Source of the DNA: Plumapathes pennacea
Lineage: Eukaryota; Cnidaria; Anthozoa; Antipatharia; Myriopathidae
Direction of reading: 5' to 3'
DNA: 64,000 bases
Assembly (NCBI GenBank): GCA_964036295.1
Contig: OZ038471.1
Span: 627,501 to 691,500 of the forward strand
Positions 502 through 62,500 of the stretch are shown here, piece by piece (the stretch's first letter is position 1; each line of letters opens with the position of its first letter). The position numbers and the translations under genes were made by a program. The notes under the pieces were generated by a model, which had not been told where the DNA came from, did no database searches, and saw nothing but the letters and a program-made list of their open reading frames with translations.

Positions 502-2161
502 CAAAATCAGCTCAAACAGTGTTCCCTGGTCCACTTTAAGGAACTCCTGGTCCCAAGGATCAATGTCATCTGTTCTCTTCTCTTTGTTTTCATCATCCTC
601 TGGTGGAGGAGGATCATCTTTGTGGTGTGTCGCCCACTGAATCACCTGGCAACAAATCAAATGTAATGTTATACAAAATAAATCACCTGGCAACAAATCA
701 AATGTAATGTTATACAAAATAAATCATCTGGCAACAAATCAAATGTAATGTTATACAAAATAAATCACCTGGCAACTAATCAAATGTAATGTTATACAAA
801 ATAAATCACCTGGCAACTAATCAAATGTAGTGTTATACAAAATAAATCACCTGGCACCAAATCAAGTCCAGTGTTAACCAATATAAACAATAAACCTGGT
901 AGAATTTTTTAACAGCTTGCTCAGAAGAAGCTGTTTAACTATCTGGACATGAGTCATGGCTACAGCCTGCACTTGAGAAAGCTGCTAAAGATATTTCATT
1001 AAAACAAATAATGTTACTATACAGTGGTGATTTTCTGTGTATTTTTTCTAGGTCTGCAGGTGTAAACAGTCTCATGTACCTTTTTAAGTATTGCAGCGTT
1101 AACATTTGGAAGAGGGACGGGTTCATCATCATCTTCATCCATACCAAGATCTTAGAAAAGTTCAATAAGTTTGTAAATAAAGTAGGACAATACTGTACAT
1201 GTATGTTTATCATAGACCAAAGCCACACATTACATCACATGTACTATACACAAAAAGTGCTGCTGAGAACACAATAAAAAGATTAATTCAGATTATTGTA
1301 ATATACTGTACTAACACACAACACAAGCAGAATGTTATACACTTTATTATATAGACATGAGTGTTTTACTGGAAAATATACCGTGCGTAAAATCCATACA
1401 AAACTACATCCGGGACCCAAGTGGCGTATTTTCCATATCCTCACTAGTGAGGATATCGCTGGCATCATTTCTCGCTTTTGCACGGTTGTTTGTGCAATTT
1501 CTCCGTAAAACACTCGTGTCTAATATAATAAAAAGAAAATTACACAGCGGCTTGAAGATATGGATTTTATTTTCTCGTGGTAAAAACAATATTTTACTCA
1601 CTCGCGAAGCGCTCATTCGTAAAATATTGTTTTTACCACTCGAAAATAAAATTCGTATCTTCGCGCCGCCGTGTATTATCCTCTATATACAAAGTTTGCC
1701 TTTCACTTTAGTCTCAAATATGACATTTACATTAGTACACAACCTTGTAAAACTAAATAATCAAGAGTCAACTTGCACTGCAGATTCAGGCTTCTTATAC
1801 AAAACTGGAGCAGAAAGCAGCCAACATCAAATAATTTGTTTTCACACAAGAAGTTTCAGTTTTCTATGCCAGTTATGAACTAAAGTTACAATGATTTTAT
1901 ATGTTCCCCGTAGTCATAAATAATTAATGTAATAATACAATACATTTTGTGTCAGTCATAACTGAAGTGGGGGAACACAGAGCTGACTGCTTGAAAATAC
2001 TTTAGATAACATTACGGCCAAGGCAGCATTTCACAGCACTATTCTGGTTGAAATCAGACAATACCTTCCAACATAGTCTTGATTGTGACAGAAGCTTTGG
2101 CTATTTCTACATCTACCTCAAAGATTTCCCCATCTGAGCTTTGCAGTTTTATATTTGGCAT
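502..2161 (-). CDS. SKP1: SKP1, SCF ubiquitin-ligase adaptor (3' end outside window)
   Basis: SKP1 links F-box proteins to cullin-1 in SCF E3 ubiquitin ligases. Three coding exons are visible: 2065-2161 (starts [20 protein letters not shown]), 1080-1150 (encodes [20 protein letters not shown]) and 502-645 (encodes [20 protein letters not shown] onward to LFELIL). Phases join cleanly (97, 71 and 144 nt; 104 codons) with GT-AG junctions. The acidic loop and [13 protein letters not shown] segment are hallmarks of SKP1 and are almost identical to vertebrate SKP1 as I recall it. The remaining roughly 60 residues (ANYLDIKGLL... helix region that contacts F-box proteins) are not found between 1 and 501, so the last exon(s) must lie beyond the window start. 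The intron upstream of exon 3 carries a 41-bp tandem repeat that copies the exon's splice acceptor (see findings). Confidence 0.95.
641..878. repeat. 41-bp tandem repeat, about 5.5 copies, abutting SKP1 exon 3
   Basis: Units begin at 641, 682, 723, 764, 805 and 846, a constant 41-bp period. The first unit overlaps the true 3' splice site of SKP1 exon 3, and each following unit repeats the acceptor-like string (minus strand TTGCCAG|GTGATT) with few changes (CCAG|ATGATT in the copy at 723). Copies near 805-846 are the most diverged. Confidence 0.9.
1348..1693. repeat. Bipartite fold-back element, copy 1
   Basis: Two palindromes sit end to end. The first (about 1350-1530) begins GACATGAGTGTTTTAC and ends with its inverse GTAAAACACTCGTGTC. 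The second (about 1540-1690) has arms of about 70 bp around the loop CTCACTCGCGAAGCGCTC. A second copy of the whole unit, over 90% similar by eye, lies at 37.8 kb. No protein is encoded. Confidence 0.85.
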
Positions 2162-3922
2162 CTAAAAAGAAGACCAGAACAATATTTTATACTATTATAT
2201 ATTTTATATATTTATTTTATATGTGCAGTATAAACAATAAACCTCAAACCACCATTTTCAGATACAGTATGTCTGCCATAACTAGAGATACTCTAATATG
2301 AAGCCTCCAGTTACAAGCAGGCAGTTATTAGCAGGCAAAGATGTGAAGCTTCACACCAATTTCACAAGTGGATAATTGACAATTGCACATCACACGTGAA
2401 AAATATTTCAACTTGCAAAACATCTCTGCCCTCATTGGCACAAGCGTTATAGACCTTGACAGATTCCACAAGATATATGTGAATACTGGACCAGGGACAT
2501 GCTCAACTTCTTCTGTATACAAGTGGAACCTGAAGCATTTATTAAAACACCCTCGATGTTGAGGACCATGTTGATATCTCTAAAGTCATGGCCATCAAAG
2601 TCATCAGACCGTGTTGACATTTTGACTAAGCATGAGTGACTGCATAAAGACGACGTGCATATACCAGTGGGAAAATAAGAAACAGTATAGAACAGTACAC
2701 CAAATGACTCACTAAAATGAAAGAAAATGTCAGTACATCCAAACACAAAACCCTTCACAGCAGTATCAGATTTTCACTAAAAATTAGCTTGACAAGCAGA
2801 GCAGATAACAACAAGCCCCTGAAAACAAAAGTCTAAAATGTCGCGAAACACAAATCAAATCAAGGTGAAAGCTCTCCAAACTTTATCAGTAAAGCTATGC
2901 CAGAGAAGCATCCTCCAGTTGATAAACGTAATTCTGGGATACTTGGGAGGAACGACTTGTTGAAAAGTTTATAGAGGCTTGAACAACAAATTATTATTCC
3001 TCACAAGACAAAGGCCCACGAAAGCTTACTTACTATGCTTGTTGTTTCGGTAGTCAGCTTCTAACAATAATGTGCAGAAGTATTTAAACGTCTTTTCAAG
3101 TGTTAAACTGTGAATATCTCGTCTTTCAGTTTGCAGCCTTCTCAAAATGGTCGCACATCGAGCAAGTCAACTTCGTCCCAGGGCCGTCCGCGTGATGGGC
3201 TCCTTATATGGCGAGCGTCGTCAACGTCATCAACTCTGCGTGTCCATTTTCACGCCCATGATCCTGTTCGAGACACAGTGTTCGCAAATGGAGTGTGTGT
3301 GAGTGTGTGTCGTGTCGTGTCGGGAATAAAATACGGAAAGTTTACACTCCATATTTTGTTGCCAGGCCCTCCTTTTTCAGTCTGCTGTGATCAATTGTTT
3401 TACTTCGGTCAAGGTACTTCAATCTTCAAACATTATCTGCAGATAATAGAAATTTCTCTATTTTACTTATAATATTGTCTTTCTAGTTTAGTTTGGTGGA
3501 TGTCATGGACAGTTAGCCGTTCGTATATTCCACCTTTATCACTTTAAAATCTATTCAATTCCTCACTGTTCAATTTACATTTATCAGTAATTACTCCACA
3601 TTGTTTATCATGCAACAAAAACCAACAATAGTTTTTCAAGTGGCTGTTGAAAACTGATGATTCAAAACACAACAGTCAAACAGCCAATCATGAGATCAGA
3701 AGGAACCAGCAGATCGCTGAGGACCCTGCTTTGCGGCGGCTAATTGACCTAATCCAGCGTTATAATAGAGACCCACTGTGTCAGAGAGTAAAGCCACAGA
3801 GTCTAATGGAAGGGTAGGGACAAGGAACGGTAGCAATAGCCGAAAATTGTGCATTGTAAATTTCTTTGCAACGCCCACACGGTAGTATCGTATCGTGTAG
3901 AGCCTGGGAAGGAGCATGGGCC
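2162..3922. other. Intergenic region between SKP1 and the P450 gene
   Basis: This stretch should hold the 5' UTR and promoter of SKP1 and the 3' UTR of the P450. No conserved protein is seen; the open frames are short and composition-driven. A GT-rich run (about 3293-3333) is the only simple repeat noted. No convincing TATA box was assigned. Confidence 0.5.
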
Positions 3923-8379
<4,457 letters not shown>

Positions 8380-11300
8380 CAGACGAGCGATGCTGCTTCG
8401 AGGCTCGTATTCCCTGATTATAGTCTCGGAAGTTCCGTTTTGCTTTCTAATCGCCTCGGGTCAAATTACTCCAGCTTATACTGCAGGCGCAGCGATCTAT
8501 CAACGTCACTGTACCCTGCCGAGAAACAAAGAAAAAACCGACTCGTAAAACTGGAAATAGAGCTGCGGTGTTGTGAGATGAAACAATAGAGTTCGCTGAT
8601 GCATACAGTGAAAGTCAACAAAGAAGTAAGGAACAAAGAAGCGAATAGAAAGAGCGGCTATAAATACAAAGACTCCGGTAGCTAAAGTGACCCAAAGCTG
8701 GAATAAGAGACAAGGAATGAATTGAATATAGACTGAGAATGGAAAGGATCCAGGCAGTCGACGAAACAACGAAACGAAAGGAAGAGGACTGATTATGTGG
8801 AGAGGGGAGGAAAACGAGAAAAATTGGAAAACCCATCACTCTTTAGAAAACTTAAAGAAAAAAACTTTACCGAGAACAGGAGACTCCCGAGTAACTGACT
8901 CCGCGCCTCGCCCCACAAGACAGTTCGCCCCTCGCTCGAACTGTCTTTGATTGAGCCAACGGAACCATTCGGAAACTTTTAGCGGAAAACATGCCTGCAA
9001 TCTTTCAGTCGGCACGAACATTAATATTGGCATGTGTCATCATCTGTTGCCCATCCAACTGGGTTTCATCACGTGTATTACTGTTATATGAAGTATATGA
9101 AGTCAACTGTAAGTACAATTTTTCTTTCGTCGTTGTCGTCGTCGTCATCTTTTTCCTCTTCCGTCAGTCTTTTTCTTGCTCTCCCTTGTTCTTGCTCTTC
9201 TGCTTCTTCCAGATGTTCCGGCTATTAGCCTTGAGATCGCAGACAAAGTCGGCTACAGTATTTGAGAAGCAAAAGAGAATTTGCAAAGCGTATAAGAACA
9301 CTGAGATGTTGCACACCATGCACTATATAATTTACAGTTACACGATAAAGTCACACATAAACGATCCATTTGGCATGGTATTAAATGATGTTACAGTTAG
9401 ACACAAATACAAGCAGTTCAATCGTGACGCTCTTTTTTATTTCAAGACTTTCAAATCCGTGGAAAGCTGTAACTGTGAATTCGTTCTGTAATTATAAAGT
9501 TGAATTTGTGCGAGTAATGAGGGGAAAAAATACTTTTTTTTCACCATATGCAAACCCCCCGCATTGCTTCAGTGATTTGTGTTGTGGCCTTGTGGGATGA
9601 TAAAGCGATCCAATTTCGAGTGCGGCGGCTGACTGCTGGTTAGCCTGCGCCTGCGAGAGCGCACGCCTACGGAATGGACTCCGCTCGCAGGCTAACTTTT
9701 CGTATGCTGCAAAGTCTATCGTGAAACATATTTGTGACTGGGTCAGCTGTCGCAGCTGCTTTACGCGTGATTAGTTAATACGTAGTTCAAAGTTGTGTAA
9801 TTATATCTTAATCTCCAGCTGAAGATTGGCAGCTCAATAATAAACCAGAGTTACGTATTTAGCTCGATCAAATTACCGACTGGATGTGGACGGCCGAATT
9901 TCATAGATCAATTCCACGCGAAAAGCGCGCTGGAATTGAGCGGAACGTTGGTACGGCGAGAGGCGGTAAGTGCACTGATTTCTGCTCTGTCACGTACGAG
10001 ATCAAACTGAAGCAAATATATGGCGAGATGGACCACAGCCGGTTGGTAAATCAGTGTCGATAAGTAACAGGATCGAGTTTTAATTTTCGAAAAGCGATTT
10101 GCGCTTAAATGTTGCCCGCTTCTGCCCGCTCGTCTATTAAAACTATCAAACATGTTAGCCTCTAAAAGTGCGCTTAGATTCTCTAAGATCTGTTGAACGA
10201 AGTTTAAAACATCGGAAACGAAGGCGTCATTGTATCATCTCTTCAGACGACTGAATGTCAGAAGTTTCTTCTTGAAATTTAGAAGTCCAAATTCACAGCC
10301 GGATCTTTCTAAAATATGACAATTCTGCCCTCGCCTTAGGTTACTCACAAGAGTCTTTAATGCCGCACTAGGGAGGGGAAATGCTGCTGCGCGGGGTAGA
10401 GGGGAGGGGTTGTGGGGCCTCAAGTGGAACCACAGGCGGCCCAAGCTTAAAGGCTCTCAAGATAAGGGCAGGGAGTGGGGGAGGGAAAAAACGTCGTTCC
10501 AGGTAGGATATGACTGATCTTTTTGTAACCACGCCTTAAACTAAGTAACCGCCCCGAACCTAGCAAGCTGGTCCGTTGTGACTGCATGTGTTGGTTGGTT
10601 TCAGTGTTTTGTTGAATCCCGATGTCAACCGATGCGGTCAGCGCAAGTTTTAGGAGAAGGTAAAGTGTTAAATATTCCGAGACGAATCAGTGATTACTTT
10701 TCGCAAGGCCAAAATAGGGAACCGACCCTAAACCAGTTATCAGCCGACAGCATTTTGATGGGTCGCGCCGCTCCATACGATAAGAAGTGATGATTTTTTT
10801 AGTGCTGTTGGTATCTGCAATGCTTTGAACTTCAATGCTAGTTATCACGAATCATTAAAACCAATAGCAAGGCAAGCAGCATTCTCTCAAACCAAGACAA
10901 ATTACTTAGCAACAGCTCTACTGTTATATATTATTTTTATATACCTACTTGAAAAAAATGTTTGGCAGATCATAAACATATTTTCTCTCGCGCTTGTTTG
11001 CTTGTTTCTCGGAGTCTCCGCCTGGCTGTAGATTTAGATCTTGAGAACGCGAGATTTTTTTGAAAACCTTGACGAGCACAGTACCCTTTTAGCGCGGATA
11101 AGTGGTAATTACAAACTTAAAGAGTTGTTGGTAACATGAAACAGTGGAACGAAGAGATCCCAACTAAAAAAGCTCACGAAGCGAAACTAGCATGCACATA
11201 AAAGACGTGCAAAGATGAAGATCTGATCTTTTTCAATGAGGCATTTGCGACAGTCGACAGCTGGCCAGTGCGCGCGGACTTGGATTAGGCGCGCAGGTGC

Positions 11301-11736
11301 TGTATGCTAATTCAGGCGATTGTGTTGTGCTCGGCATGCTATCCAACAACGTGCGTTTTTTTTCCCGACTTATCCATCGAACTATGTCAATGTTACAAAC
11401 TGTAGAAATAAAAAGAAAGCCGAGCTATCACGCGCGCTGGGCACGTGCGACGGGAGACGGTAGACATTCTGTCTCTGTGGTTCAACCCGATGATCAAAAT
11501 TAATGGTACGAAAACTAAATTTACATAATGCAGGTGTTGAATGATAACACGGCGAGATGTATTTAATGAAAACGGAAGCTGGAAGCAAAACAAACCAACC
11601 TCAAACTGGTGCTAGTTTGTCACTCCGTCTCTCGTGGTTTCACATAAAGCTGTGCCCTCTCAACATCCGTCGGTATTCTACAAAACCCTTTAAAGGGAGA
11701 AGAAGACAGACACGATGAAAGTTGGCACTTGTTTTA
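8380..11736. other. Intergenic region, no recognised gene
   Basis: Between the P450 start and the MITE before the sulfotransferase I find no conserved protein. A short signal-peptide-like frame at 8991-9110 ends at a possible donor (AACT|GTAAGT) but has no recognisable continuation. A small inverted repeat (GTTAGCCTGCG ... CGCAGGCTAAC) spans 9639-9694. Promoters of the P450 and possibly of the sulfotransferase should lie here. Confidence 0.5.
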
Positions 11737-12127
11737 GGCCCTGTTTACATGGAGGGAGGGTAACCCTCCAAGGAGGGACACCCTCCAAGAAGGGTCAGAA
11801 GATAGCCCCCCTTTACATGCCAAGCGTTATCACTAGGGTTATCTCGCCAAGAGTCTGAAAGGAATCGTGCGGTCGCGAAATTTGAGATAGTAACCTGGCA
11901 CCGCTAAACTTAGCCCCCCTGGGAGAGTAACCTCCCTCGAGTGTTTACATGGCCAAAAGTTGTCCCTACTGGGAGGGGTAATCCTAGCGAGAAGATAGAG
12001 TAACCCTCCTCCTAGGGTGACCCTACCGATCATGTAAACGGAACAAGGAATTTCAATAGAGAAGGGTGACCCTTCTAGGAGGGTGTCCCTCCTGGGAGGG
12101 TTACCCTCCTTCCATGTAAACAGGGCC
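11737..12127. mobile_element. PIF/Harbinger-like MITE with GGCCCTGTTTACATGG ends
   Basis: A 391-bp element bounded by GGCCCTGTTTACATGG and its exact inverse, flanked by TTA at 11734-11736 and 12128-12130. The interior is full of AGGGTNACCCT-type palindromic words. It encodes no protein. It ends about 150 bp before the sulfotransferase start codon. A shorter element with related ends is at 36.4 kb. Confidence 0.88.
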
Positions 12128-12277
12128 TTAAACTTGCTTTTATTTTGGCATGGTATTTGAAAGAAAATATTCTCCTATATTCCAGTAAATGTTTCATTGA
12201 ATTGTCCACTGGTTGTGATAGCAAATACAGTTAACTAACTCACACATCTTTTTCACTTCTAGATCGTCAGTTTCAAG

Positions 12278-13468: not shown

Positions 13469-13689
13469 GTCCAAATCGAAAAAGCCCAATAACGTTTTAC
13501 GCATGTGGTCATCGTGCGTCTTCTTTCACGTCCGTCATTGGACCGCGGCGCAGGCCCGCGTTTTATGGTGCTGACCAATCGCGGCTGCGCAGAGTGTCAT
13601 TTAGCTCTGTCGGCTCAGTCCCCAGCCGTCGATGTTTTGGGCGTTAGGCAATGACGTACGAACAGTTTGATAATTCATTGTTAGCTTTC

Positions 13690-13910
13690 CTTCGGTCGGG
13701 AAAGTCCCGGGTCGTGCAGCTAATCAGACATAACTAAAACATGCTCATAAACAATTTTAAATGTTATATAATAAAATTATTCATTTTCCACCTATTTCCG
13801 TGGGTCTGTTATATAAGCTCCTCGACCGAACATACGAACCAAGCCACATACGGTATAGCTCAAGATCTACCACAACGTTTTGCGCACATAAAACCTGCAG
13901 ATTGCGGCTA
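13690..13910 (+). pseudogene. Decayed duplicate of the promoter and leader of the 14.69-kb gene
   Basis: This stretch matches, in order, the region just upstream of the 14,690 gene: a CGGGAAAGTCCC block at 13697 (compare 14535), a TATA box TATATAAG at 13810-13817 (compare 14595), then a CTACCACAA..GTTTTG leader word near 13870 (compare 14650). The ORF that follows in the intact copy is absent here. The simplest reading is a tandem duplicate whose coding part was lost. Confidence 0.55.
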
Positions 13911-14594
13911 TGAAGCACAAACTTCTCTCATCTTATATAACTGTTGATGCGTTAGCTAATGTGCAAAAATACGGATGACTTCTACAGATGCATGTCGATA
14001 ACGATTTTTCGTGAAAGGGATTTCCCCGGCAGGGTGAGTCAGCAATTTTTGCCTGCTTGTTTTTTCGCCGAAAGAAGTAGGAACGGATCAATTCGGACGG
14101 ACCGACCCACTCGGACCGCTTTCGCTTTTGCTTTCGTGTTGAATCAGTTAACAGTTATCAAATCTTTAAGGTGTACAAGAATTTCAGAATATTCATATAC
14201 ACAAATTGGTCATAGCCAAACAGCTGACATGCATCTTTGCAAAAGGCAAACGTTGTGGGCGAGCTAAGAAAAGAACTGATCATTCTAGTACATGCCTCGA
14301 CTTGTTGAGCTCAGCTGTCGAGTAACGGTATTCTTGGAATGTCTCGCTTTTCTTAGGATTACCGACGAGGGGTTAACCTGCGAAAAGTCAGCCAATCCTT
14401 CCGACGTTCAGCAAACACCAACCTTGCGTTGATACATTTGTAAAGTTTACCATCGCGTCGAAACCAACACTAATTCTATAAATAGGGACTAGCATGCCAT
14501 TGTTTTCTCAGAATTGCTGAGACATGTGGTTCGGCGGGAAAGTCCCCAGTTACGCAGCCAATCACGGGTAAAGTTTGTGCGTTAGCCAGTCAAC

Positions 14595-14601
14595 TATAAA
14601 A
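14595..14601 (+). promoter_or_regulatory. TATA box of the 14,690 gene
   Basis: TATAAAA, about 95 bp upstream of the ATG. Transcription would start near 14625. A CGGGAAAGTCCCC element and a CCAAT motif (AGCCAATCAC) lie about 40-60 bp upstream of it. Confidence 0.6.
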
Positions 14602-20574: not shown

Positions 20575-23500
20575 CTAGTAAATTTTCTTCTCTTCTTTGG
20601 ACAGTTGTTCCTCAAGACCAACTCGAACAAAATTTCCCAAAACCAACAACGCCTTCTCGGGCAGGATGCTGTGGAGGAAAATAGCACAAATTAAAGTAAC
20701 TGAGAGCCAATGTTTTTTGCATCAGTGAGTCAACTGGTCAGTATTGCCCCCTACCTCACAAAAAAATTATTTTGGGAAGGACATCAATCTCAAAAAAATG
20801 GTGTCGATATTTGTAGATTACAAGGACTCACTTCTTCATCATAAGCATCAATCCCTGACTTGGAATCCTAAGCACAGCTTGGTCTCTCAACACAGCATCC
20901 ACAGTCAGTTTTGCAACATCATCGGGTTCCAAAATGGGAAACAGCTTTGGGAACCTTTGGGTCAATGAACAAAAAGTAATTTACTTGATTATTGTGACTA
21001 TAGGAGGGAGAGGAGGGGGGGGGGAGGGGGGAGAGAGAGATGGTTGCTTTCATCCCCGAACGAAGTGAGGGAAATACTCACGACACTAATGCAGCAATAT
21101 TATACCGCCTACTTGGGGACTCCAAGCCTGTCGCCATCTCGAAATTTAACGTTGTCTGTCAGTCAGTCAGTCTGTCGTACGACTTTAGGCGCGGTTACCC
21201 CGCTAACCAATAACAAAGGCCGGATCGATCACGTGTGCCCTGTTGTTTTACTCGGAATAACTTAGAGATGAGATTTGAACGAAGCATTTAGATTTGAACG
21301 AAGCAACAATATATTGTAGCTGCGTTCACGAAAATGGAAAACTTAACTGAAAAACTTGAAACACAACAGTCTCGCGAAGCTCGTCTTCAAATGAGAAGGG
21401 AACAGGCACGAGCAAGGCGAAATCGTGAAACGAGCGAACAACAGCGCATGAATGCCGATCGAAAGCGACATGAACAGAAACGGGTAATGCAGACAACTCC
21501 GCAAAGAGAACAGCGCTTGAACGCAAATCGGAAACTTCAGGAGAAAAAGCGGGCCGAAAAGAAGACTCCGCAAATTAAGAGAACAGCGCATGAATGCCGA
21601 CCAAAAGCGACATGAACAGAAGCGGGAAACACAGACAACTCCGCAAAGGGAACAGTGCTTGAAAGCAAATCGGGAGCTTCAGACGCCGTTTTGTGTTAAA
21701 CTCAGATACTTATTTAGAAAGGACAAGCAACAAAGGTTAGTCAGTGGAAATCGAACAATCACCGTGACAAATATATATTTTGTAACTCGATCACTTCAAG
21801 AATGTATTAAAATCTGTATGCTGATCATTTTCCCTCGAAGTATTGTTTTACTACGCTTCTGTCGCCAGTTTCGGCTACCGTATTTGCTCAGAGCAATCGG
21901 AACTTGGAGTCTTGAATAATTTAGTCAGATGTCTTATTTTTCTGTAATCTGACACGCGGTGATTGCAGCGAAAATCGTTCACAAGCCCTTAGAAGTATTA
22001 CTGGGTCTGAAGCCCATGTATAATTTGAAGTAAACTGTTCAAGTTTTGCTTTGATTCTGGGAGAAATTTTGCTGTTTTGAGTGGGTTCAAATACAAAACA
22101 ATTCGAGCCTATTAAATATGCATGCCTGAGTCTGGTGCATGCAGTAGTAAAAACAAATCGCACAGGAAGCCTATTTAATTGTACTGCCTATGAATTCGAA
22201 ATTAGAAAATCAGTGTTCCTTTTTTCCCGTACTACGATGGCCGACCAACTTCAAACTTTGAGTATTAAATTTCGAGAACGTGCTTGGCAGACTGTATGAA
22301 TTAATTTGACGTGCCGACCGTGGGAAATACGTACTTCGTCACGCAATCGATTCTTTTTTCAACGCAAAAGTATAACACACACCATTCTTTTTCTCCTTCC
22401 TTTGCGTGTAGCACTTGAGTTCGAAGAAAAGATTGAGTCAACATTTCGGTAAAACAAAGGTTACTCTTATTGGGAGTTACCAAAAGTAAAAGTCCCATCA
22501 ATGGCAGAGTGAGGGGGTATATGCGATTATCGTATTTCTAGTATATGCTTGGGTATGTGCACCCTAAAGTATAGAATGATGTGCTTTGAATTTGAGGTTT
22601 TTTAGTTTAAAATAAGGCGTAATAGAGTTTGTCTTGTTGGTTTGAGTATAGGGTGTGGCTTTGGGGGTATGCGGTCTGAGAAAGGGCATGGGTTAGGGTG
22701 CTTTGAGAGCCATGTGGCAGCCACACCCAAAATTCTGAAGTCTTAATATCATGTCAGCAAACAAAATAGAAGGATATTTATCAACTCTTGGGATGCCAAC
22801 AAGTCTTGATATTATGTCAGCAAACAAATAAAAGAGATATTTACCTACACTTGGGGTGCCAACAAAGGCCAGTGTTGATGAAGAATGGCTGAATGCATGT
22901 TGTTTTCACTCCATTTATTCCCAAATGTCTGAGCTCAGCCTTCAGGGCCTCAGTAAAACCCACTGCCGCAAATTTGGACGCAGAGTAATCTGTCAAGTAG
23001 TATGTACCAAAACTGCCAGCAAGGGACGCAACTGTAACAATGTGACCACGGTTTTTCTCTATCATGCTGGGAAGAAAAGCTCTTGTGGTCTGAAGCAAAA
23101 TGAAAATTTTCATGAAAAATATTCTTCTCTCTAACATTTTTTTGGCCATCCATCCATCCATTCATTCATTCATTCATTCATTCATCCTTTGTCTGAGCTT
23201 GTACATGTCTATTTATTCTTTGAGCACAATAAATGCCAACATTATTCTAACCCAGAAGTGAGCCATGATGTTAATATCCATTGTCCTTTGCATCTCTTCA
23301 TTCTTCAGCCTCATCAGTTGCTTTCCCACCAGTATTCCAGCATTGTTGACCAGAATGTCAACATCACCAACATCCACTTTCACTTTCTCAGCAACTCTGT
23401 ACACATCCTCCCTCTTGCTGCAATCACACACATATGTATGAACTTGCTTGCCACGTGAGCACAGCAGTGCAGCGGTGTCTTCATTTGTCTCTGTGACAAC

Positions 23501-48877: not shown

Positions 48878-51800
48878 CCCTGTGTTCTTACTTTGCAATC
48901 AGTTGTAAAAAAGTGACTTTTAAAGAAACAATAGTGATTTTTCATTGAATTAAAGAAATTAATTGATTAGAATGACTGTATATTAAATAAAGTTATTCTT
49001 CATTGGTTGTGCTGTCTTCTTGGTGATACGAGAATATTCCCCTTTTAAATGCACAAAAAATTTGTTATCACCCCTCATTTCCTCCCCCCTTCCCCCTTTT
49101 TTTTCCTGGTTTTTAATGAATGCAGCATCACATAGAATCTTCGCAACGCTTCAATGAGGGCCTAGATGGGGTTTACTGTTAAGTGTTATGGGCCTAAATT
49201 TTTTTACTGTTAAGTTTTATACAGACCCCCCCCAACCCTATCTAGGCCCTTTTCAATTTCACGACTGTGAAAAAATCTCAAAATTAAATCGAAAATTGAA
49301 GTGATTAGAATATAAAATTTTCCGAAATTAGCATGTCGCGAAATTGCAATCCCCAAAATCGCGAAATTAAAGTATTGCAAAAGTTTCGTGTAGTTAGGCC
49401 CATCGCGCTCCGGTGATCACAAACGCTTGACGGCACAAAAGCGTGGACTTCGAACCCAATTTGCCCCATCCAAAAATTACCGAATTCTCACAAATTATTC
49501 AGCACAATGCGCCAAATTTTAACGGGTTTTGTAATTTGGCGGTAGATTTCTTACCGCTGTACACTGAATTTCGCATCTCGCATCAAACTGGCCCAGTTGC
49601 GCAACAAGGCCAATCAGGGAGACAAAATCTCAACATACCCCCAGAAAATCATAGGCGATAAGTATGAATTACCTGTTTGGCTTTATACTTTAAGAGTATT
49701 TTGGTAAAATAGCGATTGCTTCAAGTTAAAACGAGAGAGTAAAATGTACCAAACATTTGCACGCGTTAATCTATAATTTATTGTATTTTATAATCTTTTT
49801 AGTTGGTTGAGGCACCTGTTTGTTAGGGCTCTTTAAGACACTCTCGGTAAATAAGTCTTCGCTTGCTTTACTGTCAATGTCTATCAATTCTATACCCAAC
49901 AAGGACTTTACGCGCCATTACACTTAACGGTGAAGTAATACGGGAACATTTTATTGCAACTTGTCGTGCAACAAAGTTGCGTAGCAAGTTCCGGCCTGTT
50001 GTTGCACGTATTACTACCTACGCACGCAGCTTGTTCTGCAACAGAATTTCGTGTTGTGAGTTGCGGCAACACGAAATTTTGTTGCATGCGTAGGTAGTAA
50101 TACGTGCAACACAGGCCGCAACTTGCTACGCAACTTTGTTGCACGACGAGTTGCAAGAAAATGTTGCCCGTATTACTTCACCTTAAAGCTTTTCCGGCAG
50201 TTTTATAATTAGAATTCTTTATTTTGAATTTTAAATTATTATTTGAATTTCAAATTATATTTGAATTTTGTGACACGTGGGCAAAGGCTGCCAGTAGTTT
50301 TCCGAGAGAACTCGATAAGGTGTGTCGCAGTGGTCAAGAGTTCAGTTATTCCGTACGTAATTTGGAGGTTGGACAGGTTAAAAAAGAAAACGGAGGTCAG
50401 TAGAAGTATGATTTATGATATTGCTAGTCTTTCATAGTCATACAATAGAATGCTGCTACCTGTAAGAACCAAAGTGAAACTGAAGAACGAATCAAACGAC
50501 GTTGATGTGGGAACGGCAAACAAGTGTTAGCAAACGTCTTGCCGGAGCGTTAGCCCTTCGTCGGAGCAAGGTGCTCCCGTGAAGTGATCTCGGGTGTGCC
50601 GAGTTTTGGTGGTGTTTCAGATGCCATCGCCGCCTCGTGCTCGAACCAAGCGAACCAACCACTCGAGTTGGTTCGGTCGGTTTGAATCGAGCACGCGATG
50701 AGCCAGAGGTCTGTGTTCTCAGGCTAGCTGCGTTTAGACGGCGCATTTTCTGATTTGAAGGCGGCGATACATTTCGGCTTCCAATATTGCGCAAAAGGCG
50801 TTCCCAACACGCGGCAGAAAATCACACGTGCAACACTTCTATGTCCCGCTAAGGTTGATCATATATTCACGAAGTTTGTAATTTGCCCGTACATAAAGCA
50901 CAAAAGTACATTATGTACAAAAGTAAATGATATTTTGCGATTTATTCAACCCATGGCAAAACAATATTTCGTGTATTCCCCTCGAAATCGTTTACTATAT
51001 ACACCTCGCTCTTATACGTCATTTATATTTTTTTAGTGAACGAAATTTTGTCATTATCCGCGCGATAAATACGAAATATTGTTCACAGTGCATTTGGCCA
51101 TCGCTTGGCCGAGTTGGCTCAAATTTGGTTGTTTCGCAATCCAAGCCAAGTCGAGCGAAATTAAAGCCAAATTAAACGCAAGGTGATTGGTCAGCCTTTT
51201 GTTATTGCATATGAATTGTTTCTTGCATTTGGCTCGACTTGGGGGTACCAGTTTAGACACCCGAACGGAAGTTCAGCGATTTGTAAACTTGGCTTGAGTT
51301 GGCTCGACTTGGATTAAGTCCGTTTCGCCAGGGATTTATACAGTACACGGTAAACTTATCTGGTTACTTGCTACATCAATATGTAATATATGCATCACTC
51401 TTTCACTTTGAAAACGAAATTTTGCATTATCGCGTTTACTATGCATAATTAATATTACACCGTGAATCTATCTCGTCACTATCCGCGCAGTAATCACGAA
51501 ACGTCGTTTAAATGAGCTCAGTGCCACCCCCTTAAAACATTATTATAAAAAAAACGCTTTTTTGAACCGCTTCTCGGCAACAGGCAGCTGCTTCCCGAGC
51601 CTGTCATGCCTCGCTGTTTGTTTAACAATGAAGTTGAACAATTGTAATCTGCTTGAAATGGCAGTTTGCATAAATTAGAATATTGGACATGTCAACCGTG
51701 AACACTCCATGCTCCCAGTCCGTTCCACACGCTCTTGTGGGCAGTGAAGCGTGGCGAGGGCGATCGGTTGCTAAAATAGACACCTCAGCATTTTCGGAAA

Positions 51801-52189
51801 ACGAACGGCGTTTGGCATTGTTTTCTCGAGGTGCTTATCAACGAATTCGATCCCCGTTTCGCTTGTGAGGCGCGCAGACGTCAGCCTTTACCAACTACCA
51901 CCCCCACCCCCCCCCACCCCGAACTGTATTTGGAACTGCAACTGTTCTTGGTAATCGTTCACTTTCCATCGACTGAACTCCGTTTTTCGTATCCGGTAAC
52001 TGTTCCTTCGACGAAAAGAGCGGTTTTTTGTAGGCTGTGGAGCCAACCGGAGGAGCATTGAACCGTGTTTTACCCGCACGGTGGGGCATTTGAACAAAAA
52101 CATTTTCAAAAGAAAGGGTTTGCTATCAGTGAACCTCGCTATATCAAGTGGTTTTCAGTTTAATCTTCCTACTTTCTGCAGGCATAAAG
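48878..52189. other. Spacer between the two CmcI-type genes
   Basis: No protein gene recognised. It contains a large palindromic element (49924-50186), a probable duplicated non-coding leader exon ending at 50395 (CGGAG|GTCAGT) and the block GTAACTGTTCCTTCGACGAA at 51996. Two short C-rich tracts (about 51899-51918) lie before copy B. Confidence 0.5.
49924..50186. mobile_element. 263-bp palindromic MITE, TTAA-flanked
   Basis: The ends TTAACGGTGAAGTAATACGG and CCCGTATTACTTCACCTTAA are inverted, and the inversion continues inward for about 120 bp with the words GCAACAAAGTTGCGTAGCAA and GTGTTGCACGTATTACTACC. Sub-repeats (TGCAAC/GTTGC) recur many times within the arms. No ORF of interest. Confidence 0.85.
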
Positions 52190-54882
52190 ATGGAACCAAT
52201 AATTGATCCACAAGATTACAAGAATATCAGCAAAATATTCCAGGAGAACCTCAAGAAGGTCCATGCAGGATACGCTGGGCGGTTTCTGAACATCACCGAA
52301 AGAAAAGATGTGAGTGACCGTGCATTGGACAAGGGCTATTCTAAAGGTGAGGCGATGCAGTAATGAAATTTGTGTCTCGCACGTGGATTTGGGTTTCCGC
52401 TGTGATTTTGAGTTAGAAAAAAGAAAGTCGTTTTCCACACTCCCAAAATTGTCGACCTAGAAAAAAATTCGAGCATGGACTAGAAAGTATTTTCAACTCG
52501 ACACTCGGGAAAAAAATTAACTTCAGGGGTTGTTCGCCTGGTGAGACTAAACTGCCAGCAGTCCCTTCTTTTCACTCCTACGTGTTACGGGAGGACCAGT
52601 CACGAGCGCAGAAGAGTACGGCGCGCGGAAAATGGGGCGAGACAGGGAGAGGAGGGACTGCAAACAACTCTCTTCCCATTGGTTCACAGCTTCGCGGTGT
52701 GTAATCAACTGTCAATCACAAATATTCTTTTGTGGAATTGTTGACTTTCCCGGTCTTTGTCCTCTCTTGGGGTGCGTTCGATTGATCGTATTCTGGAATA
52801 AGAATTGCTAAAATTATCCAAAGTTTTGTTTGTTCTGGGGGAAATTGGCCTGACATTTCGAACAGCTCCCGATACATCTCGACATAATTCAGCTTCAAAG
52901 CGAAATATTTTATCAATCAGTATCGCTTTTCCTATTCCGGAATAGACCCAATCGAACGCGCCCCTTGGAGTTTAGCATATAACAAGGAGACCAAATCTTG
53001 TTGGACCTCCAAGTTTTGCTTTTAAGACCCTCACGCATGTCGGAATCAACGGTCAAAAAGCCGCTCGAAATTTCTCTGGATTTGCGCTTGGTTTGCCAGG
53101 CTAAGGTTTGTATACTTTAAAGTTTTTCCTGTCGGTTTTGCTTTGATTCGGGAGGAATAGGCCATTTCCGAGATGCCTGTTGCCTCTGTTTTAAAACGGG
53201 GTCTTGTGCGAAACCTTTCAGTTAAAAATGAAACTCATTTTCATAAGAAAGGTTTCGCACTAGACCTCATTTTGAAACACGCATCTCGGAAATGGCCTAT
53301 TTAGGCCGTTTTGAGGTTTACAAGAGCAATTTGAATCAGTCGCTAAATCACTAAAGCCGTAAACTCATTGAATATGCGTGTGATTGACTGCCGCGTGTTG
53401 GGAACTCTTGAGGCCAAAATTGCGGGACAATGTTTTGAAGAAGCAGTTGCAAACTCGGGAAGTCGTGATGTAGTGATATTCTGACACGAGAGGCCGAAGG
53501 TTATGAACTAGATTAATGGGCGTGACAACTTTGTGACAGCGTGACTACTTTGTGACATTGTGAAGACTTTGTGACAGGGGGCGTATTTTTATACAAATAG
53601 TGCAGCCTAGTTTAGACCTGGTAAGTAAAAAAAAAAGAAAAAAAAAAAAAAAAAAAAAAAAAACAGCGAGTGTTCCCACGCCGTGTTCGTGCATGGAGGA
53701 GGAGATAACTTTTTGTTAGTCAAGTCACATCAAGAGACTCGGAAGTCGATTTGCTCTTTTGTGATTGTATTTTTGTTTTATCAATCTCTGTTAGGCAAGG
53801 CCTTCACGCACTGGCGGGGACTGGCACTGAGGAAATATCCCGTGGACTATGTCATCATTCAGCAGTTGCTATGGGAACTGAAACCAGCGACTGTGTTCGA
53901 GATGGGCACGCACGAGGGCGGCAGTGCATTGTGGATGGCGGACACACTCAAGATGTACGGCTGCCAGTCACACGTCTATACTGTGGATATTGAACCGGAA
54001 ACCATCAGACCGCTGGCAAAGCAAAACGAAAACATCACTTTTATTCAAGGAGATCTGACAAAAGTATCTGGAGTGCTTCCTGATGAAATGCTCAAGGTAC
54101 CCTCAGCCAGTTTGAACTCAAGGAGATCGCCTGCCATTCTATCTACTCTTGACCGACTATACATTTAGGATTTAGAATTGAAAGGAGCATTTTGCTGCTC
54201 AGCTTGCTTTTTGGTGTCTTTTCGTCACTCCTAATTTTACGTTACTCTTGGGACTCATACGTCCTTTTGTTTTTTGTTTTTTGTTTTGTTTTTTGTTTGT
54301 TTTTTTTTTCCGAAAGAAACTTCCTCATCCTTGGTTCTTGGTTGAAGACAGTCACATAAATCTTGTGGTCATTTTGGATCACTTCCACAAGTACCTTCAG
54401 CCTGGTGACTACATGTGCATTGAGGACACCTGGCCCTCGCAGCCCACAGTCGAAGATACCCGTCTGGATGAATCCGACCAAATTGGAGTCGGAAAGATGT
54501 CTGCATTGCGCGAATGGTTGAAAAAGCACCCAGATGAATACGTCGTTGATGTATTTTACTCCGATTTCTATGGGTATGTTAATAGTTCCTCAATTTGCGG
54601 TTTGCATCTATCTGCAGCTAAATAAGGGGATCTGTGAGATTTCACTCCATTTGTTTGAAAAAGGAAGGTTTGATGGTGATGCTAGTGTTAATGAAACTGT
54701 AGTTTAATGTAGTATGTTCGATTTGCTCATTGCATCGGATCATGTTTATTTGATACAAGGCCCACACTGATAGCTGCAGTCTGTACCTATAGAAAATTGT
54801 GAAAGAGTATTTACGCTTCAATCTTCTCTCTAGGTACAACATGACAGCCAACTGGAATGGCTTCCTCAAGAGAGTGAAGTAG
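52190..54882 (+). CDS. CmcI-family protein, copy B (tandem paralogue)
   Basis: Four coding exons: 52190-52346, 53795-54096, 54317-54573 and 54834-54882, with lengths 157, 302, 257 and 49 nt, exactly those of copy A; 254 residues. Motifs are the same: VFEMGTHEGGSALWMADTL, VYTVDIEPE, FIQGDLTK, LVEDSHINLVVILDHFHKYL, YMCIEDTWPS, NWNGFLKRVK. Roughly 80% of residues agree with copy A by eye. Differences cluster in exon 1 (around residues 28-45) and in the stretch after IEDT, which suggests relaxed or divergent selection there while the SAM site is conserved. Both genes have canonical splice sites and open frames, so both appear functional. Poly(A) signal AATAAA at 54952-54957. Confidence 0.88.
52769..52964. 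mobile_element. MITE with GGGTGCGTTCGATTG ends, copy 2
   Basis: Related to the element at 20,127: left GGGTGCGTTCGATTGATCGT, right CGGAATAGACCCAATCGAAC followed by GCGCCCC. The target duplication is unclear (possibly CTTG). It lies in the first coding intron of copy B. Confidence 0.8.
53150..53306. repeat. Inverted-repeat element, about 155 bp
   Basis: AATAGGCCATTTCCGAGATG on the left is inverted as CATCTCGGAAATGGCCTATT on the right, with the inner words GTGCGAAACC / GGTTTCGCAC also inverted. A non-autonomous fold-back element in copy B's first coding intron. Confidence 0.8.
53627..53663. repeat. Poly(A) tract
   Basis: About 35 adenines with one guanine interruption, in the intron before exon 2 of copy B. 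Confidence 0.9.
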
Positions 54883-55197
54883 CCCTGTGTGTAACTCGGT
54901 GCCTGTGTTTTTAGTTCGTAGTGAGCTGTCCAAAATAAATCTAAAAGTAGCAATAAAGGGATTCTTGGTGATACAAGTACAGAGTTGACTTTTGTCTTTG
55001 GCTCAGTGGATAAAGTTTAGGGGGAAGCCATTACAACGCAGAACGGGGAATGAGATCAAACAAAACGACAGAGCTAAAACTTGCAGGGTTACGTTTAGAG
55101 CGAGGTTTATGGTTAGACATCAAAACGACTAATTCTAACTCTACGAGACTTGGTTCTGTCGGCTGGTTTATCTCATTCCCCAATCTCTGTTTTAGTA

Positions 55198-55407
55198 TTA
55201 ACCTCTTCACTCCCAAGAGTGATCAAATTCAATTTTCTCCCTCAGTTTCTCACCAGAGATATATTACACAGTAAGAAGATCTTAGCTTTTGATACCTTAC
55301 TCAGATGGCAGCTGATTAAACTATCAGTTCTCTTTTCGCCACCCATATATTTTCTTCTTAAAAGGTTGAGAGAATCTGCATTTTGATCTTGGGAGTTGAA
55401 GGGTTAA
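55198..55407. mobile_element. TTAA-bounded MITE, second near-complete copy
   Basis: Left TTAACCTCTTCACTCCCAAG, right CTTGGGAGTTGAAGGGTTAA, 210 bp; same family as the element at 48,548. It lies about 300 bp downstream of copy B's stop, whereas the first copy is inside copy A's last intron, so the two insertions are independent of the gene duplication. Confidence 0.87.
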
Positions 55408-55448
55408 GATCCCACATACGGGTCTTACGATTTAATCGTAACAAAGCA

Positions 55449-55733
55449 TTTGGATCACGTACCTTCACAGTATGGATCTCTTCACAATAAGCCGACTTGT
55501 TCCACTGTCGCTCGGTAAAGATGCACGAAGAAACAGGTTAGTGTTTGGATCACGTACCTTCACGGTATGGATCTCTTCACAATAAGCCGACTTGTTCCAC
55601 TGTCGCTCGGTAAAGATGCACGAAGAAACAGGTTAGTGTTTGGATCACGTACCTTCACGGTATGGATCTCTTCACAATAAGCCGACTTGTTCCACTGTCG
55701 CTCGGTAAAGATGCACGAAGAAACAGGTTAGTG
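55449..55733. repeat. 95-bp tandem repeat, three copies
   Basis: Units start at 55449, 55544 and 55639 and are nearly identical. On the minus strand each unit contains a polypyrimidine-like stretch, CAG, a 42-nt open segment (WNKSAYCEEIHTVK) and AAG|GTACGT, i.e. a possible exon with both splice sites. No gene was found to which it would belong. Confidence 0.9.
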
Positions 55734-56537
55734 TTTGTATCATATTTGTATAAACCAATCAAATAGAGATTCACAGTTTGCAGGCGAGTTGAAGACAGAT
55801 AATTGGACGATTGTAAGAAGACCCAGTGAAGACATCGCTCTTTTCATGCGCCGAACTCGATGTAAATTAACTCGAACAATTGGACATTATTTTCTCAGAC
55901 CTTGCGACTCAATTGCCAAAAACCGACTTGCCGAGCTTGATTCCTTGCGTTTCGCCTTTCTTAAGTCGCTCTTGATAAAACAGCTTGTACTTTCTGTAGT
56001 TTGACGTTCCGCATACTCTCACAGTTTATATTAGCGAGAGCAGACCAGACTGTATATTCAGACGGCACACGAATTCACAGCAAAATGAACAATTTTATTG
56101 CATTTTATCACATATTCGGGAATAGTATAATTCTTTATTCACTGAGTGGGCATTTTCGACGAGTGCTGCACTGACATGAGCCTGCGATCACAAGACTGCA
56201 GCGTCAGCGCATGTCAGTAATGCCCACCAACCACCTGACATCTTGAGACTATTGACAAATGAATTTGAATGGAAAACTATCTGAATAAATCCTCTGCTTT
56301 AAACCTCGAGCTTCTCTTCTCGAGTCGCCGCGCCCAGGGCACTACGTTAGCGAGCACCGAGCTCGTCCCAGGGCACTACGTTTGACATTTTAGTTAACAA
56401 AACTTATGAGGTTCTGGTAATATTAAATCACCAGGAAACTGTTTTGCTGTCATTTAGAAATGACAGACAGTAGTTGTAACAGGAACAAGAAACAAAAATA
56501 ATGAAGTGCGGCTTTGGTCAGCGCCCTATCCTGTCTC

Positions 56538-59500
56538 CTACAGGCCTACTTGCTGATCAAGAGTTCCTGGGAATTGGTCCCAGTCCTCTTCCAATGTGAA
56601 CAGAGCAGTGAGATCACCGACAGTGAGGGCCGAGTTTTCTGTGTCACGTGATCCAGTTCTGTTGGAGAAAAAAGGTCTTGAGTGACTTCCAAACGTGACT
56701 TTCACACAATTATATGTTATCGTTTCGTCCGGCCAAAGAATACTACATGCTTGAGGTTTTAGAAGGAAAAGAGCCTGGTAACCATTTTGTTTCAAGGGAT
56801 TGAGGATTATTAACCACTATACCTGACAGCCGCTGAACTCTTGGACTGCAGGAGCGTGAACATCCGGGACTCCACAGTCCCACGTATGATGAACCGATGG
56901 ACTTGAGTGGGCCTGGGGACAATTAAAACAAAATGTGCGCCATGAAAATGAACGAATGAAAAACCACAACAGGAAATCTTCACTTCGCTTTACCTGGTCT
57001 GTCCTATGCGGTGGACTCGTCCGACTGCCTGCAGCTGGTGTGCTGGGTTGAGCGCGGGCTCAACAAGCAGTACGTGCGTGGCCTCCACGATGTTGAGCCC
57101 GTTGGCACCCGTCTGAAGGGGCAGCAGCAGCACGGGAATACTAGGATCGTGTTTGAACTCCTGGAGGTTTTTCTGTCACGTGGGGAAACACTTTATATCA
57201 TTACAGCTGATTGAACCGGCAAACAACAGTTACTTTCTCCACGAAGTAAACTCAGAAATACGATGAACTCTCTCTTAACGGACACCTTTCTAACCTGAAA
57301 GTTCTTACGTCCATTTATATATCTGAAAACGATGTCATTTTCATCCAGTCCTTTTGAAATCACCTCCAAGACATCTTGCCACTGGTAAGAAGAAATGAGA
57401 TCTTCATCAACCACATTAACACATCATCATCATCATCATCATCATCACCATACCATCATGGTCATAATTTTCACCATCAGCACCATCATCACCATTGTTT
57501 TGATGATGTTTTGAATTCAATATACATTTATATCTAAAATATTTTGAGTATTAGCACTAGTCATCTAAAATAACTATAGAGTTACCCAGTTTTACAGACG
57601 GAACAAAAACAAAAACGAAACTGCTTACCGTGGAGAACACCAGACATTTGGCTGAAGCGTCATTCTTCCTGATTGCCAACAAGGTGCGCACAACTGCTTC
57701 AACTTTGGTAGAGTGACTTCCCTGAAACAGTGAATCAGTGCTCCTTCTTCACTATCTAGGCTCTAGGTTGTTCAATGCTCGATTAGTCTTATTCTGAATA
57801 AAAAAACTTCGCTCACAACAAGTTCCCTTGATACATTTTAAGCTAAAACAAGTCTTTTTAGTTGGTGTACGATCAAAACCCTACGGCGGTCGAGATGCAG
57901 AAGTTGAATAACGACCCATTCGTACGAGACTAAATAAGCTAATATTAACTAAGCATCCAGAGTGTTTATTTATTCTTTACCTTTACAGCAATACAGTGAT
58001 TTTCGTCTTCAGACAGCTTCTTTCCCGTGCTCACGTACGAGATTTCCTGAGCGAGAGACGCGATGCGACACATGGGACACTTGACGCGCACGTCTCTGTG
58101 CCTGGGACCAATTCCTGCCTGACGTAACAGCACCCACACGCACTGGCAGCAGAAACAGTGACCACAGCAGAAGACGCTCCACTGGGGACCAAAACAAAGT
58201 CTTAATAAGGGGTCTCGACAATCTCTAGTGAGGACAAGGAGGGAGGGAGAGAGGAGGGGACTGGGGTTCAAGTGACCAATCATGCGTGTACAACTGGTCT
58301 TTCACGACGTGACATGACCCACGTGACCTGACTACGTGAACTGACCCACGTGACCTGACGACGTGAACCGACCCACATGACCTAATGACGTGACTTGACA
58401 ACGTGACTGGCGACGTGAACCAAGTGGGTTACAGAGGCAGTTCGGAAGGAAGCTCATCAGTATCTCAGCGTTCACAGTTTTTTTTTTAAATTCTGTGCAC
58501 ACGATCTCACCTGGACACCGAGTTTCTTGGTACACACGGGGCACGGGTCAGGGTTCTCTCCGCCGAGGCACGACTGGCTCTGGACAAACAAACAAACAAA
58601 CAAACAAACAAACAACAACAACAACAAATAAACAACTGGGGGCTAAGTAGCAGATTAGTTAACATCACGTCTTCCCTACCTTTGCAAGATTGCTCAAATA
58701 CAGCAACTGACCAAGTTTCTTTCGCAACTCAGCTTGCGCTATAATTCGGTCCGACAGGAATTTCAGACGCTGTTGTTCTACCTGGAGAATTGGAGTATAC
58801 GTTAGAATAAATAAGCCACTCTCACAACCATGTACAGTTGGCGAGACTGAGATAATTTGGTGAGCCACCTGATGAGAGTGGAGAACTGACTCTTTGATTC
58901 TTATGAAGAAACAAAATGACGTTCGGTAGAGCGATACACTTGACAAAGTAAACAGTACTATTTGCTATTGCGCTTGATTGTCAACAGGAACGACGAGACA
59001 ACAACGAGGACGAAACAAGAACAACGTGTGTGAAAACAAAAGTGGGAACAATCAAATATAACATCAGTGACAACCACAACAATGTCATGACAAAGGGGCG
59101 AAGCAAAAACAGCAAACTAACCACAAGAAGTTTGTTTTACCAACAAGATAAAATCAATGCAGCAGCAATAAACACAGCAAGGGAAACAGAAATATCGGCG
59201 ACCGAGCGATGATCGAAAAAAAAAAACAGCAGTACGGAAGTAAGTCAAACCGGAACTAAGTCAAACCGGAAGTCAGACCTGAAGCGGGTGCAGGACGTGC
59301 GTGTCATCGGACGGAGTTTCTCCCGGAAGTAACAACCGTAGCCTGGTGGTGCACATGTCCACTTCATCAAGCGCAGACACGCGCTCACGGAGAGCGAACC
59401 AGACGGCACGTAGGAACTACAACCAATAGGAACAAAGGAGTAAGGACACGTGACAGAAAAGATCGACTATGAACCAGACGGCACGTAGGAACTACAACCA

Positions 59501-62500
59501 ATGGGAACAAAGCAGTAAAGCAAGAATGGACGACGTGAGAGCGTAAACTGAAGAACATGAAGTCTGAATAAACATTATCACAAAAGTTGCAACACCAACA
59601 AAAACAACCATATAAAGAAACAAACAAGGAAGCAAAGATATTAAAGATTGAAGAGCAGAGCCGAATTAACAGGAACGTGGAAATGATTTACTCACTTTAA
59701 ACTCTTTGCGGCGAGCTTCGATAAAATTAAGATGATGACGCGCTTCTTGGTAGACCGCTGGACATATTTCTGAGAAAAGTAAAGGACACAGAGAAGATTC
59801 TTAGAAGAGTAGAAGCAGAGACAAACAAAGATACTGACACAGAGGCAGACAGAGGGAACAAAAGATGCAGGTCTCACTGTGTGATTTGATGAACGCGAGT
59901 ATCGCCCTGAGCGCCTTCTCAGTTTCAGACTCCGCTCTCAGTCCTCCCGTGTTACCAAAGCGATGCCAGTCAACCAGCTCTCCACCTGACACGCTGGAAA
60001 AAACAAAACAAAAACAAAAACAAAAACAATACACGCGTGAATAAGGCGAGTTACGAGTATGAAAAGCATAAGTTCTTGACGTCACTTCCGGTGGTCAGCG
60101 GTCGTGGTAAATTTTCACCTCTTGTGTAAGCGCCGAGCTTGACAGTGCTCGACATTAAGGTTTTAGGTTGGTTGCCCTTCGGACTGTAGATTGACTTCAA
60201 GCAATAGAAAGTTTTATAATTTCTGGTTGCCCGGCCCAGAATTTACCTGCCCAACCAAAAGTTTTGGTTGCCCCGGGCAAGCGGGCAAGCGGGCAACCGT
60301 TAATGTCGAGCGCTGCTTGACTACTTGAGTTACACAACAAAATCTGCACAGCGGTTTTGTGTAATGACCGCTGATTCAAAGACCGCGCGACCTTAAAACG
60401 TATTTCCACTGTGTCGTTTTTACAGTGGATTCAAGTTAGTACTTACTCCTGCTCGTCCGCGCCTCTCATTCCTTGATGACCAAACAAGCGAGACTCGTAC
60501 TCCTTGAAAATGTCGTCCACCTCACAAAATCTGCATCTAATGAAGCAAGAAATAACGAACTTGAAACGTAATGCAGGGCGGAAGTTCACCATCTTCTTTG
60601 TACAATGTCATTGTATAAGAGTACTTCGCTATTTATAACGTCACGCCTGTTATAGCAGTTTTACACAGGAAACATCGGAAACTCACGGCCAGATCGTGGG
60701 GCGGCGGGCCGCAAAAAGCGCCGGAGGGGGAGGGTGAGGGGGACAACAGGGGAAGGAGGAAAAGAGCATCAGCTTGTGCACCTTATAATATCAATAGTAA
60801 AGGTCATGTACCTCGCGACGTGAGCATCTTGCACGGGTCTTAAACAACACTCTGCGGCAGTGCGCACCATGTCTGCTGACGGCTCTACACTCAAGGCTTT
60901 CACTGCTCCCTCAAGAGAACTATAAGTAGACTAAAGAACAACAACAGGTTTTACACTCAAGGCTTTTGCTGCTCCCTCAAGAGAACTATAAGTAGATTAA
61001 AGAACAACAACAGGTTTTACACTCAAGGCTTTCACTGCTCCCTCAAGAGAACTATAAGTAGACTAAAGAACAACAAGTTTACACTCGTTTACAAGGGAAG
61101 TAAAAAGAACTTTTTGACATTCATCGCGCATGATTGCGAAAGTAGCTTATACAAACCAAAAATCTATGGTCACAAATTCGCTCAAATTTTCAGACAGGTA
61201 AGCTTGAATAAAATGTGAAAGTGTGAACTTCATCCTTACCTCATTTGTGTCCAGTTTTGTGGTAATGACGTACTCCAATCCACGAATGTCCGCAAAACTA
61301 AAAAAAAAAAAAAAAACGCGGGACACAATTAAATAGACAGCTACAGCAAGCAAACATATGAAACATAATTAGGTTTCATTTTGCCTTCCAATAATCACGC
61401 GTGGAGTGTCCAACCAAATATTTGTTAAATGAAAACCAGTTTTTTTTTTTATGTAAGTGTTCTTCCAATCAAACTAAACAGAACTTCTTGCAACACACTG
61501 TATGAGTTATCCGGCCCACCTGTGAAGCATACTTGCAGGGTTCGGCTGAGTAGTCGAGACTTCATCTCTTACTCTGTGTAGCAACTCATCTTGTGCACCA
61601 GTTGCTAAACTGAGAGCAGTGTGCAGTGCTGTGATCCACCATGGCGAATCAAGATTCAACTGTAAAAAAAGCAAACAACAACAACAACAACAATAAAAAA
61701 CAAGTTTGTGATTATTACTTTCAGAATACCGTAAAACCCTGGTTATAAGCCCCGGGCGTATTCACCTTCATACGGGCTTAACACTTTTTGCCCAAGCTCA
61801 AAACGCAGATTCTCCCAGCCTTTACAGAAGAAAGTGTATGAGTGATGTAGTGAGAATTGATATAATGGCGCGACTATAAAAATATTTTAGGGTTACGGTG
61901 TCTGTCATGAATATTCCTTTATTATATACATACTGAGACATACTCACGAAAAAGCCATATCGTAAAATTTCGTACGCAAATGAGTTCTAGCCAATGAGAG
62001 GCCGCGAACGACGCTTTTCACACGTGAAAAAAATCGTTCGTCCAATCACAAGCTGCGAACGACGATTTTTCACTACTTTTAAAGGGTTTCCCGGTCCCAT
62101 CATAAATGTCTCAGTATGTATATAATAAACAGAAAACATCATGGAAAGTGCTTTGTACAGTTTTTATTCACTCGTTGTTTCGTATCATAAAACTCACTCG
62201 CTCGCAAAGCCTCGCTCGTTCGTTTTATGATACTTCACAACTCGTGAATAAAAACCGTACGCGCGCACTTTCCATGAAGTAATCTCTATATATTTGTCAA
62301 ATTCCTTTACCGAAACCTTGACTCTTCCCGATACCTGACAATCTTGATTGCGATACATTACCTTAGACTGCATTTCCGCTATGCTGATGCGAACTTCGTG
62401 CAAATTTTGTTGCGCGGATTCGACCTGATTAAGAGTCTTGGTCATGTATGTCTTCTTGAGCTCCTCGGCCTGGTACAAAAAAAAAAAACACGACGCTACT

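Follow-up and report, generated by a model that had tools for sequence, protein, structure and literature searches.

The DNA analysed here, hereafter the window, is a stretch of 64,000 nucleotides from Plumapathes pennacea (C10:627501–691500) within a 290-Mb genome of 24 contigs. Its gene content is that of an animal. Alignment shows near identity between the SKP1 gene at its left end and human SKP1. There is also an HMG-box protein, with a match to PF00505, and on the right a long gene that carries SNF2-related and Helicase_C matches; we call the latter the SHPRH-like gene, a tentative name taken from the human protein. At the cut-off used, neither a RING nor a PHD match was returned for the SHPRH-like gene, and an Rfam search covering the window together with 23 of the 30 loci returned one tRNA only. 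Left of SKP1, at window-relative −19262 to −5512, a single predicted gene resembles three tandem 14-3-3 genes.

Several repeats accompany these genes. An almost pure (ATT)70 microsatellite occupies 6304–6514, where a doubtful open reading frame encodes poly-isoleucine, and a GTCCCC-rich array of 28-bp units lies at 63199–63500, within an intron predicted for the SHPRH-like gene. MITE-like elements at 1–350 and at C2:4004901–4005300 appear related by eye and share CGCCGAAGTGGAGGTGAATA, the C2 copy containing an internal 129-bp duplication. Hairpin-like stretches were also noted by eye near 1430–1680 and 61920–62280.

Duplicated exon boundaries in three genes

A reading of the window from sequence only had described three short duplications, in SKP1 and the SHPRH-like gene, that copy a 3′ splice site together with the start of its exon. 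Our duplication finder recovered duplications of this kind at each of the three, all in minus-strand genes, and Tandem Repeats Finder (TRF) recovered the SKP1 case and the one at 60886–61076. Their description as tandem holds for SKP1 and for 60886–61076, whereas 59396–59518 is a spaced direct duplication.

In SKP1, a tandem array of 5.5 copies of a 41-bp unit (640–865, minus strand; TRF and duplication finder) precedes the exon called by the hidden Markov model (HMM) at 502–645, whose first base after the exon-proximal acceptor is 645, in frame 0; the alignment with human SKP1 runs gap-free across this start, over KK|VIQW. Each unit combines six exon bases (GTGATT) with ~35 bases of intron that include the acceptor, so that TGCCAG|GTGATT recurs in every unit, the copy at 727 having ATGATT instead. 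Decoy acceptors would accordingly begin an exon at 686, 727, 768, 809 and 850; CAG is kept in all five and AG|GT in four. The preceding exon, also an HMM call, lies at 1080–1150 on the minus strand and ends in the donor AAG|GTACAT (score 5.39). Since this donor, at 1079/1080, is outside the 41-bp array, the intron is older than the duplication and was not created by it. No difference separates the two copies nearest the exon; the three that follow show one or two differences each, neighbours sharing some of the variants, and the copy at the intron edge differs at 8 of 41 positions (0–2 for inner copies). Judged from these differences, the copy history appears to be ordinary stepwise minisatellite growth. 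Searched against its own genome, the array found one match, itself, as expected of a local duplication, although such a search can miss repeats.

An acceptor matrix fitted to this genome, starting from an animal consensus, scored the SKP1 decoys at 5.02–6.34 and the real site at 6.34 (median predicted acceptor, 5.7), and all five decoys lead to a stop after five codons. Both properties would suit extra acceptors kept by selection for gene regulation, for example through unproductive splicing that reduces the SKP1 level. We consider such a role very improbable, because the number of boundary duplications equals that expected from random placement (see below), AG|GT has been lost in one SKP1 decoy and the middle copy of the SHPRH-like array at 60.9 kb has lost one AG.

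The same array might instead be a self-correcting row of splice sites, that is, a natural recursive-splicing array. Joining exon 2 to any of the four CAG|GTGATT decoys rebuilds AAG|GTGATT, a donor scoring 6.01 compared with 5.39 for the real exon 2 donor, and re-splicing to an acceptor 82–205 nt downstream would restore the exact message. The shortest predicted introns measure 66–82 nt (the gene finder having a minimum of 55), so re-splicing across at least 82 nt is possible by length, while one 41-nt unit is shorter than any of them. This reading of the motifs is improbable in our judgement. If true, a boundary duplication would be harmless even where its decoys are used, and re-splicing would offer a route for neutralizing such duplications.

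The SHPRH-like gene carries two further cases. The exon at 59279–59416 (minus strand, beginning FLRAVWFALRERVSALDEVDM, phase 0) was placed by hand from its reading frame and an acceptor score of 4.2, as the HMM misread this place. Its start lies within a direct duplication at 59396–59518 on the same strand, in which a 48-bp run containing TTGTAG|TTCCTACGTGCC recurs at a spacing of 75 and places a decoy first exon base at 59491, with a stop after 24 codons. Unrelated sequence separates the two copies, which makes this a spaced direct duplication and not a strict tandem. The second exon (60812–60930, minus strand, containing EGAVKALSVEPSADM) is supported by the HMM call and acceptor scores; its candidate starts, both in phase 0, are 60930, with a score of 6.55, and 60909, with one of 3.54, a start at 60919 being rejected for an immediate stop in the reading frame. 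A tandem array of 2.9 copies of a 66-bp unit (60886–61076, minus strand; TRF and duplication finder) covers this acceptor and the first 24–45 exon bases, and creates decoys at 60975, 61041 and 61062, among others; the first two reach a stop after 14 codons each and the third after 21. The middle copy differs at 3 of 66 positions, and the last 59 bases of the edge copy are the same as in the exon-proximal copy.

A counterpart at a 5′ splice site lies outside the window, 8 kb beyond its right end, in a gene close to human SF1, which we take to encode the branch-point binding protein. The duplication, at window-relative 72134–72258, takes in a donor and the end of the exon before it; this exon encodes NPEYKPPSDYK (human SF1, NPDFKPPADYK). 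The decoy donor GTAAAT is weaker than the real one (4.43 vs 6.02) and the copies differ at 15 of 68 positions. Duplication of an exon boundary is therefore not peculiar to 3′ sites.

Tandem repeats are a frequent site of assembly errors, which is the point in favour of reading these copies as artefacts. The substitutions between copies, at 0–8 of 41 positions in SKP1 and at the positions given above for the middle SHPRH-like copy and SF1, would not arise from simple mis-joining, and we regard an assembly origin as extremely improbable.

Frequency of boundary duplications

The sequence-only reading had judged that three such cases in 64 kb exceed expectation and had suggested, as one of two explanations, a local mutation process at exon edges. 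Frequencies were estimated in 354 kb, comprising 104 kb at the window (window included) and 50 kb from each of contigs C1 to C5, on which a home-made 13-state gene finder, its states covering exons, introns and intergenic sequence on both strands, was trained from genomic sequence alone; its exon calls were corrected by hand. The curated set contained 281 introns, and hence as many predicted acceptors. The duplication finder, which returned no duplications on locally shuffled sequence, listed 47 local duplications; all nine rows from C4, which lie below 12 kb and for the most part represent a 335-bp satellite, were not counted, leaving 38. In C4 a satellite array with a 335-bp unit covers ~8.4 kb, at C4:4002533–4010929. 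For the null distribution, each repeat was reduced to a single unit before a second gene prediction, and units were placed at random, either anywhere or within the same block.

Before curation the 38 duplications fell into acceptor (three), donor (one), both (one), exon (one), intron (30) and intergenic (two) classes, with P of 0.145 and 0.27 for the acceptor count; the single exon-internal case was the duplication at 59396, misread by the gene finder. Four candidates were set aside. An array at 55449–55742 (95-bp unit, 3.1 copies, 98% alike), considered as a fourth acceptor case, lies between two predicted convergent genes, ~800 bp beyond the stop codon predicted for the SHPRH-like gene; it holds only short open stretches without a predicted exon, and each copy carries the donor-like GTGAAG|GTACGTGAT. 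At 21440–21682, scored as acceptor-spanning in the first automatic pass, the exon call is likely false: the plus-strand unit is a repeated Lys/Arg-rich frame, presumably transposon-like. The apparent spanning of tiny exons at C2:4975–5234 reflects false exon calls of 10 bp in a MITE-like element, and an apparent old duplicated exon piece at C1:12572 fell outside the boundary and exon classes once collapsed.

After curation, three duplications spanned an acceptor, one a donor and none lay within an exon, with 32 in introns and two intergenic. Expectations under placement anywhere or within the same block were 1.36 and 1.67 for acceptors (P = 0.15 and 0.23), 1.36 and 1.68 for donors, and 5.25 and 4.70 for exon-internal duplications (P = 0.002 and 0.006); the acceptor and exon-internal values are somewhat too high, false exons having been deleted by hand only at duplications. 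Allowing either copy to span the boundary raised the expectations to 3.41 acceptors and 3.26 donors, with 4.11 exon-internal duplications (P = 0.02 for the observed absence). Assuming 30% false exons lowered the acceptor expectation to 0.95–1.17 (P = 0.07–0.11). At three looser thresholds, 3–4 acceptor cases compared with 3.2–3.5 expected and 0–1 exon-internal cases with 4.9–6.9; the two loosest gave four and one, respectively (expected 3.2–3.5 and 5.9–6.9). Thresholds of 18 and 16 admitted one acceptor match outside the window, an 18-base run at C3:20797, and one exon-internal case.

Site-level counts pointed the same way. A local copy matching at least 23 of 30 bases was first found at 4/280 acceptors, 2/282 donors, 116/9089 intron positions and 0/223 exon middles. 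Two of these acceptors and one of the donors were judged false and the acceptor at 59416 was added by hand; at corrected sites the three acceptors scored 24 (SKP1), 29 and 29–30 of 30. In this sample repeats were no more frequent at acceptors than at intron positions (3 of 281 acceptors vs 3.6 predicted from the intron positions), an outcome that the sequence-only reading had named as refuting its proposal. At a cut of 27, two of the 281 acceptors qualified, with 1.4 expected from 45/9089.

A mutational mechanism directed at exon edges or 3′ splice sites, such as polypyrimidine-tract slippage or end-joining that inserts filler DNA, would predict an excess at acceptors. Such a process could draw on the window alone, where 14 units and 74 acceptors gave three acceptor cases vs 0.82 expected (P = 0.043, a post hoc value, the window having been picked because the cases were seen there), on the ratio of three acceptors to one donor, and on the spaced copy at 59.4 kb, whose unrelated spacer may be a trace of filler end-joining. 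Over the whole 354 kb, however, the count is random-like under either null; duplications are not significantly close to acceptors (7 of 38 within 50 bases vs 5.2 expected, P = 0.26); none of the 207 acceptors outside the window has a duplication at the main threshold; and SF1 provides a donor case. The excess is therefore nominal and confined to the window, and the claim of a mutation hotspot does not hold in this sample; we consider a directed process unlikely. The sample is small, and a modest enrichment at acceptors would be compatible with it.

Probable tolerance of boundary duplications and comparison with known systems

The second suggestion of the sequence-only reading, that such duplications are tolerated because splicing continues to use the copy adjoining the exon body, agrees with both counts: boundary cases are about as frequent as random placement predicts, and none of the 4.70–5.25 expected exon-internal duplications was found. 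It is highly probable, in our assessment, that local duplications arise at random, that exon-internal ones are purged and that boundary ones persist as the exon-adjacent copy stays intact. Small local duplications would originate without preference for site in this genome, and selection would remove those lying wholly within coding exons. Where a duplication straddles a boundary, the copy touching the exon would keep the full splice site and the reading frame and the extra copies would end up in the intron, which would account for its survival; the same tolerance should apply to acceptors and donors. In SKP1 and in the SHPRH-like gene at 60.9 kb, the first duplication would later have grown as a minisatellite. 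Splicing would pick the exon-proximal copy because it alone is then followed by the full exon, and any leakage may be hidden by nonsense-mediated decay. All nine decoys checked in the three duplications add a stop codon, which would make their use unproductive unless the transcript is re-spliced. Boundary duplications may serve as natural experiments on how the spliceosome chooses among near-identical 3′ splice sites, and new exons and introns may be built from them.

Intron gain reportedly can proceed through tandem duplication of AGGT, and the SKP1 unit likewise contains AG|GT. That route requires both intron ends within the copies; in SKP1, the one gene examined in this respect, the copies hold only one. 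A related arrangement is described for the human polyubiquitin gene UBC, whose tandem dual-specific splice sites are variably spliced (PMC10809524). As in UBC, AGGT recurs in SKP1 at regular repeat spacing and could in principle act as donor or acceptor; unlike the 228-nt in-frame coding monomers described there (PMC10809524), the SKP1 unit is mostly intronic and its 41 nt are not divisible by three. In plants and green algae, a survey found tandem repeats enriched in introns near intron–exon junctions (PMC3887541); no significant trend toward acceptors was seen here. In Drosophila, nonsense-mediated decay has been proposed to shelter new introns (PMC2809761), which parallels the sheltering suggested above.

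The closest likeness is to the lancelet ‘mirages’, minisatellite-like duplications of intron–exon boundaries described in globin genes. The published cases comprise Adh3, troponin C, PGBD5 and the globins BflGb6 and BflGb9; the reports give units of 10–160 bp at both 3′ and 5′ boundaries, state that regular splicing is undisturbed and note that in BflGb6 the edge copies are excluded from homogenization (PMC3087553, PMC3902484). Here too the unit lies across the exon–intron boundary, at three acceptors in the window and one donor beside it, and splice signals are kept in many copies, such as CAG in the SKP1 decoys and GTAAAT in the SF1 decoy. A diverged edge copy beside near-uniform inner ones is seen in SKP1 but not in the SHPRH-like array at 60.9 kb, where the middle copy is the one that differs. 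Unlike the mirages, the present cases involve other genes and are known from the sequence of one assembly. On their sequence organization, the duplications reported here appear to be of the same kind as mirages.
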